From an uncultured Alphaproteobacteria bacterium (GTDB lineage: Bacteria; Pseudomonadota; Alphaproteobacteria; CAAGCB01; CAG-977), in NCBI GenBank assembly GCA_944393745.1, contig CALYBD010000001.1, positions 136,628 to 169,477 of the forward strand: a DNA stretch of 32,850 bases, written 5' to 3'. This document shows positions 14,614-15,588 of the stretch, piece after piece (position 1 is the stretch's first letter; each line of letters starts with the position of its first letter). The position numbers and the translations under genes are program-made. Below the pieces are notes generated by a model. The model had not been told where the DNA came from. It saw only the letters and a program-made list of their open reading frames with translations, and did not search any database.

Positions 14614-14620
14614 AGTTTTA

Positions 14621-14648
14621 AAAGCCCCGGAAACGGGGCTTTTTTTTC
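14621..14648. terminator. Strong bidirectional terminator
   Basis: A 9-bp stem AAAGCCCCG / CGGGGCTTT with a GAAA loop, followed by a T run. It lies between the converging flavodoxin and lipoprotein genes and has A and T runs on both sides, so it can serve both. Confidence 0.92.
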
Positions 14649-14652
14649 ATAC

Positions 14653-15219
14653 TTAAACAGCAGAAGAAACGATTTTCACTGCATCAATTTCGTTTATGCA
14701 TGAAGCCAACATCAAGCTCAACTGTTTTTTATTTATTCCGGTCAGACCGGACAAAGCCCGTAAGTGCTCCTGTTCCCCTTTTTTCAACGAGTTGAAATTA
14801 AACAGAATAAAACGTGTTATTTTCATCTGCTTTTCAAAATTGTTGCGCTGCACTTTTGTCATGTTTGTTTTTTCCATTTCAACATATACGGCATCGGGAG
14901 CATACCGCCATACGCCATTTGACAAAAAATCTGTCGTCCAGCTGTATAAAGACGATAAGTTAATAATGCTGACCGGATTGATTTGAGATGATAAAACAGC
15001 CGTTACATTCTCGTATCCGTCTTTTTTCAGCATAATAAATACGTTGCTTTGACTTCGTTTTACATCAACGGCACATGGTGTTGAACAAACGGGCATACCA
15101 TTAATATAAACCTTTGCCTCAGTGATATTGGAATTTACGGTAATGCTTTGTTGCGTTCCGGAAAAAATCGTTCCGCAGGCAGATAACAGCATCAACGGTA
15201 AAAATAAAAACTTTTTCAT
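14653..15219 (-). CDS. PEGA-like domain lipoprotein of unknown function
   Basis: A 188-residue lipoprotein. The signal peptide ends with lipobox LSAC (cysteine 15). The next ~75 residues resemble a PEGA-type surface domain: SITVNSNITEAKVYINGMPVCSTPCAVDVKRSQSN followed by KKDGYENV. The C-terminal half (from about residue 115) is alpha-helical and charged and resembles no family I recognise. The ribosome site AAGGAG sits 5 nt before the ATG, and only 3 nt separate it from the T run of an upstream intrinsic terminator, so expression probably depends on read-through from the structured RNA upstream. Its own terminator is the GAAA hairpin at 14621. Confidence 0.75.
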   Translation of the reverse strand: MKKFLFLPLMLLSACGTIFSGTQQSITVNSNITEAKVYINGMPVCSTPCAVDVKRSQSNVFIMLKKDGYENVTAVLSSQINPVSIINLSSLYSWTTDFLSNGVWRYAPDAVYVEMEKTNMTKVQRNNFEKQMKITRFILFNFNSLKKGEQEHLRALSGLTGINKKQLSLMLASCINEIDAVKIVSSAV

Positions 15220-15233
15220 GAACTCTCCTTATG

Positions 15234-15259
15234 AAAAAAAAGCCGCCCGGAAAGGCGGC
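15234..15259 (-). terminator. Terminator of the structured RNA, abutting the lipoprotein ribosome site
   Basis: On the minus strand GCCGCC / GGCGGC (arms 15242-15247 and 15254-15259) is followed by eight T residues, ending 3 nt before the AAGGAG of the lipoprotein gene. It could be a simple terminator of a small RNA or a regulated attenuator. Confidence 0.85.
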
Positions 15260-15507
15260 GGGGAGTTCAGAAATCACACATAAGAATGATCGTTATGACC
15301 TTTAACCCCGTACCAAAAAATCGGCAGAAGTCTGAACATACGTCAAAACCTCCCCGACCATAACAATGAAATCGGGGATATAATCCTGTTTTGTGTACGA
15401 CAAAACAGGTTACGGCGTTCATATCAAACACCGCTTATGTGAGAGCTTCTGACGGCTCCGCGCCTGATTTCCAGACACTTACATAAACAAATATCGTGTT
15501 TATGCCT
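15234..15507 (-). ncRNA. Unassigned structured RNA or attenuator leader
   Basis: On the minus strand a predicted transcript begins near 15507 and ends at an intrinsic terminator. Clear helices are: CATAAACA/TGTTTATG (15482-15504); a long-range closing stem pairing 15434-15441 with 15277-15284 (CTTATGTG/CACATAAG), continued by 15447-15452 with 15267-15272 (TTCTGA/TCAGAA) across a small internal loop; and, enclosed, hairpins 15413-15433 (7 bp with one possible G-U), 15385-15409 (10 bp) and 15352-15377 (6 bp). GTTATG (15292-15297) could pair with CATAAC in the last loop, making a pseudoknot. No tRNA-like T loop, RNase P or SRP core motif is visible. It matches no RNA class I recognise. Confidence 0.6.
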
Positions 15508-15513
15508 GTTTAA

Positions 15514-15542
15514 AGAATATAAATTTCCATCAAAAACAGCAA
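15514..15542 (-). promoter_or_regulatory. Putative promoter of the structured RNA
   Basis: On the minus strand TTGCTG (15537-15542), a 17-bp spacer and TATTCT (15514-15519). Predicted start is near 15507, just before the first hairpin. By eye only. Confidence 0.5.
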
Positions 15543-15562: not shown

Positions 15563-15588
15563 AAAAAGCCCCGGAAACGAGGCTTTTT
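15563..15588 (-). terminator. Terminator after the alcohol dehydrogenase gene
   Basis: Plus-strand GCCCCG-GAAA-CGAGGC, flanked by A and T runs. Read on the minus strand the stem is fully paired, with one G-U; on the plus strand it has a C-A mismatch. This fits termination of the leftward dehydrogenase gene, whose stop is at 15591. Confidence 0.85.

Follow-up and report, generated by a model that had tools for sequence, protein, structure and literature searches.

A probable riboswitch-like 5' leader with a covarying, mutually exclusive helix in gut Alphaproteobacteria, and its relatives on mobile elements

The window (the whole stretch of 32,850 nucleotides analysed, from an uncultured alphaproteobacterium) carries on its minus strand, at 15507-15234 between an Fe-ADH-type gene and a gene for a PEGA-domain lipoprotein, a structured RNA that we regard as probably a cis-acting, riboswitch-like 5' leader. 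Covariation of a helix designated P5alt, together with the terminator or Shine-Dalgarno-hiding hairpin that lies behind it, makes such a switch the most likely reading. The structured leader itself is real, well beyond chance expectation (folding z = -7.25 against 100 dinucleotide shuffles).

The proposed regulated gene (minus strand, 14653-15230 including its ribosome site; ORF 15219-14653; Pfam PEGA, 1.2e-9) follows the leader closely. The RNA ends, as originally predicted, in an intrinsic terminator, P8 (minus, 15259-15234), whose GCCGCC/GGCGGC stem occupies 15259-15242 and whose T run extends to 15234; the Shine-Dalgarno sequence AAGGAG (15230-15225) begins 3 nt later, with the ATG at 15219. 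The upstream Fe-ADH-type gene has a terminator of its own (minus, 15588-15563), and near-identical terminator hairpins (AGCCYCGTTTCCGGGGCT) follow both this gene (15563-15588) and the lipoprotein gene (14617-14640, likewise minus). A promoter-like pair read from the sequence (minus, 15543-15514; -35 CTTGCT at 15543-15538, -10 TATTCT at 15519-15514, 18-nt spacer) was missed by a strict consensus scan. It had been part of the original prediction and gains weight from the family, since a similar pair precedes 52 of 78 copies, against 11.0 +/- 3.0 in shuffled sequence; a generic -35/-10 search upstream of plasmid-type copies gave 0 of 23, and TATAAG-like boxes stand before many of them. The RNA would be expected to start near 15507 and to end at 15234.

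Searches at the DNA level showed that the element recurs in the source genome and that almost every genome of this genus and family carries it as well. A pattern scan of GTDB genomes with a strict gut-clade pattern returned 70 loci, mostly from gut and rumen and, by title, nearly all from uncultured Alphaproteobacteria or Proteobacteria, with three bins otherwise named. The same strict pattern found nothing on viral contigs, and the gut-clade version is therefore not evidently phage-borne; copies of the sRNA-Xcc1 type, discussed below, do occur in phages. Distinct sequences from uncultured gut Alphaproteobacteria (75) were aligned with MAFFT without structural information, which limits circularity in the covariation test, and this alignment (A1) served to build a covariance model restricted to the gut clade (R1). 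R1 detects 12 copies in the source genome, of which six are strong and the other six belong to a divergent, shorter type. It also detects the family in 11 of 12 genomes of the order, at up to 20 copies per genome, and in genomes from many other alphaproteobacterial families (23 of 289). R1 finds nothing in one nearly complete genome of the same family (G009), against 15 copies in its sister G007 and 14 in G011. One R1 match, on the minus strand at locus L110 (E 0.0012), reflects a true copy on the opposite strand. The shorter divergent subfamily (CAGGGCGTCAGAAACCCT; L131-L135 and L158, from the source genome and a relative) shows strongly changed P5alt strands, and in the source genome every one of its copies has a different gene behind it, predicted to encode a small or secreted protein. 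In two recent structured-RNA surveys (PMC11109978, PMC8632094) Alphaproteobacteria go unmentioned in the main text.

The predicted fold is conserved and aptamer-like, and covariation runs through most of its helices, all given here on the minus strand. At the 5' end, hairpin P0 (15482-15504) joins CATAAACA (15504-15497) to TGTTTATG (15489-15482) with 8 of 8 pairs canonical, and by eye other copies have a hairpin of different sequence at this position. P1 (15460-15478) comprises 7 canonical pairs between 15478-15472 and 15466-15460, and plasmid relatives have GAGGCAG/CTGCCTC there. P2 (15442-15459, GGAGC/GCTCT) is paired in 90.8% of alignment cells, with double changes in 4 of 5 pairs; its loop, CAGAA at 15451-15447, pairs with TTCTG at 15272-15268, directly 5' of the regulatory segment, to form PK1 (97.3% paired, double changes in 4 of 5). 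PK2 joins CACATAAG (15441-15434) to CTTATGTG (15284-15277), the latter within the loop of hairpin P7 (15272-15291, GATCA/TGATT, 94.7% paired), and all 7 of its column pairs are doubly changed, in 204 cells. Hairpin P3 (15413-15433) is 99.1% paired with double changes in 5 of 6 pairs. Its loop, GATAT at 15425-15421, can pair with ATATC at 15381-15377 in the 5' flank of P5; support for this contact, PK3, comes mainly from one covarying column pair (60-126: AU 47, UA 20). The 10-bp hairpin P4 (15385-15409), with double changes in 8 of 8 pairs, is missing from many plasmid-type relatives. P5 (15351-15378, TCCCCGA/TCGGGGA), which defines the first of two states, is 98.4% paired and almost invariant. 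P6 (15292-15349; 15349-15342 with 15299-15292) is 98% paired with 4 of 4 core pairs doubly changed, and encloses a conserved internal loop, GTATGTTCAGA (15341-15331) opposite TTAAAGG (15305-15299), that is kept in plasmid copies. The terminator P8 is 98.7% paired.

The covariance analysis suggested with the original prediction thus found compensatory change in 41 of the 55 pairs of the named structure across the 75 aligned sequences, with 92.3% of cells canonical; doubly changed cells number 703; shuffles give 238 +/- 18, and strands slid by 1-3 columns no more than 197. An unbiased mutual-information scan ranks the long-range stem, P3, P4, P6 and one inner hairpin at the top. That long-range closing stem, which had been foreseen and corresponds to PK2, is among the strongest covarying elements of A1 (columns 22-26/282-287 and 38-44/264-270; for pair 24-285, UA 27, AU 24 and GC 21 of 75) and resolves into two helices. 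PK1 and PK2 are both pseudoknots, because P2 and P7, the hairpins that they cross, covary too; the pseudoknot once offered as a possibility is therefore supported, as is the PK3 contact. The five helices originally proposed become about ten. Two further pairings were considered: an RNAalifold pairing at the base of P1 (CGGAG/CTCYCC) was set aside, since the local P2 covaries and the same segment fits P5alt, and a GTTC/GAAC pairing of the core motif with the 3' arm showed no covariation.

The antiterminator pairing that had been suspected opposite the 15242-15259 stem exists as P5alt (minus strand), in which the 3' strand of P5, GGTCGGGGAG at 15359-15350, pairs instead with CTCCCCGCC at 15265-15257, excluding P5 and taking 3 nt of the 6-bp terminator stem. 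It comprises 9 bp and one bulge in the window. Across the gut clade the partner of GGTCGGGGAG is CTCYCCGACC, at the base of the last hairpin, with 98.8% of cells paired over ten columns of A1, and an extra base on one strand is usually matched on the other (A-U, U-A or U-G). Divergent copies within the source genome have wholly different yet complementary strands, as in AGGCGGGTGT/ACATCCGCCT and GACTGGGAG/CTCCCAGTC. By comparison of own with swapped arms, P5alt covaries in every subfamily: own-arm scores in three of them were 26.3, 25.0 and 23.7, against 23.8 +/- 0.22, 20.5 +/- 0.50 and 17.5 +/- 0.94 for swapped arms, differences of about 11, 9 and 7 standard deviations over 29, 35 and 17 distinct helices. 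As far as sequence evidence reaches, the leader thus has a property expected of riboswitches, two helices that exclude each other and are linked to an expression platform in cis.

That platform takes two forms. Most gut copies have P8, then a T run, then a ribosome site. About 14 copies have no T run; here P8 and the start codon are 14-18 nt apart, and the CTCYCC arm takes the Shine-Dalgarno sequence itself as its partner, in pairings changed on both sides (TCTCCG/CGGAGA, CTCCCG/CGGGGG, AATTCCC/GGGAATT, AACTCTC/GAGAGTT). A U run is mostly absent when the start lies no more than 18 nt behind P8 (a mean of 3.5 T in 8) and present in the remaining copies (6.7). For 22 leaders with arms picked by hand, the CTCYCC arm scored 16.0 with its own Shine-Dalgarno region, against 14.7 +/- 0.45 with those of others (7/2000) and 10.5 +/- 0.5 with shuffled letters. 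The position in cis is general: a start codon lies 14-45 nt behind nearly all copies, and in 75 gut-clade copies with distinct genes an ORF on the same strand starts within 90 nt of P8. Among 70 gut downstream genes, Pfam identified autotransporters (9), EcoRI-type methylases (5), staphylococcal-nuclease-like proteins (4), RgpF (3), acyltransferases (3) and PEGA lipoproteins (2), as well as other DNA methylases, restriction genes and pilins; many copies with a Shine-Dalgarno-pairing arm precede DNA-modification genes. The leader appears modular, in that its closest relative outside the source genome (L006, 83% identical) sits before a different gene.

A mechanism consistent with these features can be outlined. 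A transcript begun near 15507 would fold a knotted 5' domain, in which the P2 loop engages PK1 and PK2 sits in the P7 loop, with P3, P4 and P6 alongside, and the 3' strand of P5 would then choose between its own hairpin and CTCCCCGCC just before the terminator. Were the knotted domain stable, perhaps with its signal bound, P5 would stay closed and CTCYCC would be left to the P8 terminator or the Shine-Dalgarno hairpin, turning the gene OFF; were it unstable, P5alt would form, the base of P8 could not close and the gene would be ON. The sign could also be reversed. One device would thereby serve two outputs, acting through a terminator or, in other copies, through a hairpin that sequesters the ribosome site. 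Where P8 is a terminator, P5alt overlaps only about 3 bp of it. A nested approximation without pseudoknots gives the terminator state much greater stability (-106 versus -88 kcal/mol), so that switching would have to be kinetic or signal-driven; since thermodynamics of this kind favours the terminator state, our guess is that the window leader is OFF by default.

The original prediction had recognized no known RNA in this sequence. At Rfam thresholds that claim holds: the window itself gave no match to a described structured RNA, the window and 31 related loci together yielded only tRNAs and the unrelated Atu_Ti1 at gathering threshold, and ARAGORN reported no tRNA or tmRNA in the window. It requires amendment in one respect, a distant kinship with sRNA-Xcc1 (RF02221), a family reportedly acting in trans. 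Window positions 15249-15358 align with its model at 20.7 bits (E 0.72), far below the gathering cut-off of 53 bits, and the leader is therefore a distant and longer relative of RF02221 and not a formal member. Intermediate members score 29-37 bits over the full model, also below 53 (L189, L216 and L201: 32-37), and one copy in the source genome (G000:C27:30638-30723) matches RF02221 at 34.6 bits and, independently, R1 at 5.4e-10. The architecture corresponds: the closing stem GGCCGGG..CCCGGCC has its counterpart in the 9-bp, covarying P5alt, followed by P6, whose conserved internal loop may be the equivalent one, and then P7, and RF02221 loci have the same P2/PK1/PK2 domain on their upstream side, outside the Rfam model. 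Where RF02221 has the internal loop ATACAA../GAAA the window has GTATGTTCAGA/TTAAAGG, with L189 intermediate (GTATACAACAGG..CTAAAG). Loci above the RF02221 cut-off have an upstream hairpin loop complementary to the 3' arm (own 21.6, swapped 16.8 +/- 0.62, 0/200). The window leader differs in its length (about 275 nt, P4 and a terminator included, versus an 87-nt model) and in its setting, being chromosomal and before a lipoprotein gene, whereas RF02221 is known from Xanthomonas and from integrons, plasmids and phages. Our preferred reading places the leader in a large superfamily that takes in the Ti-plasmid traM leaders described below and holds sRNA-Xcc1 as its 3' half.

Gene order around RF02221 is of the same kind. 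Behind many of its loci, at a distance of 24-40 nt, stands a gene for a KilA-N, Rha, P22_AR_N or SymE protein, and Bro-N genes follow at about 110 nt. In Vibrio phage VPBES, 31 nt separate the end of the annotated sRNA-Xcc1 from a small downstream gene that occupies the position of the KilA-N gene in related phages. In integron cassettes of Xanthomonas, sRNA-Xcc1 has likewise been noted ahead of symE (PMC12444791). A stretch of about 10 kb at G560:C40:304721-314889 holds three RF02221 copies, similar to a tandem cluster reported from a Xylella genomic island (PMC12189769).

A further branch resides on plasmids. A blastn search with L156, one of R1's hits in other alphaproteobacterial families, matched 403 of 72,556 plasmid records, mostly from Agrobacterium and Rhizobium; 295 of the matched records are predicted to be conjugative. 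Of the plasmid copies examined, R1 misses two and recovers the rest (E <= 1.2e-4). The two it missed (L180 and L181) are the named Ti-plasmid traM leaders, on pTiAch5 and pTi_CFBP1933, which were found by blastn with a Pararhizobium traM leader and aligned separately (A3); on both plasmids traM starts about 25 nt after the match. This textbook quorum-sensing gene of Agrobacterium conjugation is also the downstream gene in Pararhizobium, Mesorhizobium, Jiella, Pannonibacter and a pAt plasmid, and other annotated neighbours include helix-turn-helix regulators, DUF2285 genes and genes near AHL synthases. A second model, R2, built from 24 mostly plasmid sequences, detects the family in 39 of 385 sampled Alphaproteobacteria genomes and in three genomes outside the class, and also finds the window locus (E 1e-5). 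A search of the open-access literature found no published traM leader RNA.

The small size of sRNA-Xcc1, a discrete RNA of about 100 nt by Northern blot and 88 nt by RACE (PMC2996969), bears on the proposal, made for that RNA, of an independent sRNA that acts in trans and has a promoter and terminator of its own, the downstream gene receiving read-through only. The promoter and terminator predicted here would suit that account, as would two loci (L035 and L088) without a close downstream ORF, but we consider it improbable for this family. It is disfavoured because other copies exchange the terminator for a hairpin that sequesters the Shine-Dalgarno sequence, an arrangement hard to explain for an independent sRNA and predicted by a cis-acting switch; the close start codons and the strong selection on alternative pairing at the terminator base argue in the same direction. 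Furthermore, the 88-nt species begins at P5alt and so leaves out the conserved 5' domain, an indication that it may be the processed 3' part of a longer leader. Of the two readings originally entertained, attenuation in a riboswitch-like manner is thus well supported, and a small RNA with read-through is not favoured.

The nature of the signal admits a more serious rival, that the leader answers to an RNA-binding protein, such as a host chaperone or a ribosomal protein, and not to a small molecule. Very diverse regulons without a common pathway are consistent with this, TraM protein drops in an Agrobacterium hfq mutant (PMC4201532), and on pTiAch5 (L180, 2557-2889) a gene for an RNA chaperone of the ProQ/FinO family immediately precedes the traM leader. 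Against this, the pseudoknotted fold and the long, conserved internal loop resemble a binding pocket, no protein gene was seen travelling with the RNA, and the Hfq effect may be indirect; we hold protein control to be possible, though less likely than not. (At the corresponding place on pTi_CFBP1933 no ProQ/FinO gene is annotated.) Attenuation by a leader peptide, whereby translation of a short ORF from the conserved ATG at 15338 would set the P5/P8 choice, draws on the invariance of this ATG in the gut clade and on GGGGAG about 10 nt before it, and seems very improbable: second codon positions change (TYC, ARA), frame and length vary among copies, and sRNA-Xcc1-type copies have ATACAA and no start codon. 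A coding upstream ORF at this ATG was rejected on the same grounds, its frames differing within A1 and the ATG being lost in those relatives. Least credible, to the point of being negligible, is a 6S-like RNA that binds RNA polymerase. Size and a long-range closing stem recall 6S RNA (RF00013), which the original prediction had named as nearest alternative, but the family has pseudoknots, many copies (12 loci in the source genome) and a position in cis, the window has no match to RF00013, and a separate 6S-like locus (L247, G000:C19:20596-20781; 43.7 bits against a Rfam cut-off of 46.4) is likely the real 6S of this genome.

A cis-acting, riboswitch-like leader thus remains the preferred reading, and the leaders found before plasmid-transfer, phage, DNA-modification and surface genes across Proteobacteria probably represent a common on/off switch. 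They share with riboswitches of transcriptional and translational type a conserved sensor-like domain, an alternative helix with a terminator or hidden Shine-Dalgarno sequence behind it, and many genes per genome; they differ in that their target genes have no common metabolic pathway, and they are riboswitch-like with a ligand that is only hypothetical. We would put at even odds a broader proposition, that they constitute a single pan-proteobacterial class, spread largely by mobile elements and governed by one common signal, which controls conjugation (traM), phage antirepressors, the SymE toxin, restriction-modification and surface genes, with sRNA-Xcc1 as its processed 3' half. If so, this would be one of the more widespread orphan riboswitch-like classes, judging by the genome and plasmid frequencies of its broader form; an RNA switch would stand ahead of traM, and a published family of trans-acting sRNAs would be recast as the tail of a cis-acting leader. 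The variety of targets suggests a general signal by which mobile elements might read the state of their host. One chromosomal copy (L196, 1501-1725, minus strand) has a second partial core (GTATGTTCAGAGG..TTAAAGG..CTCCCCGGCC) right behind its Shine-Dalgarno sequence, as if two switches overlapped.
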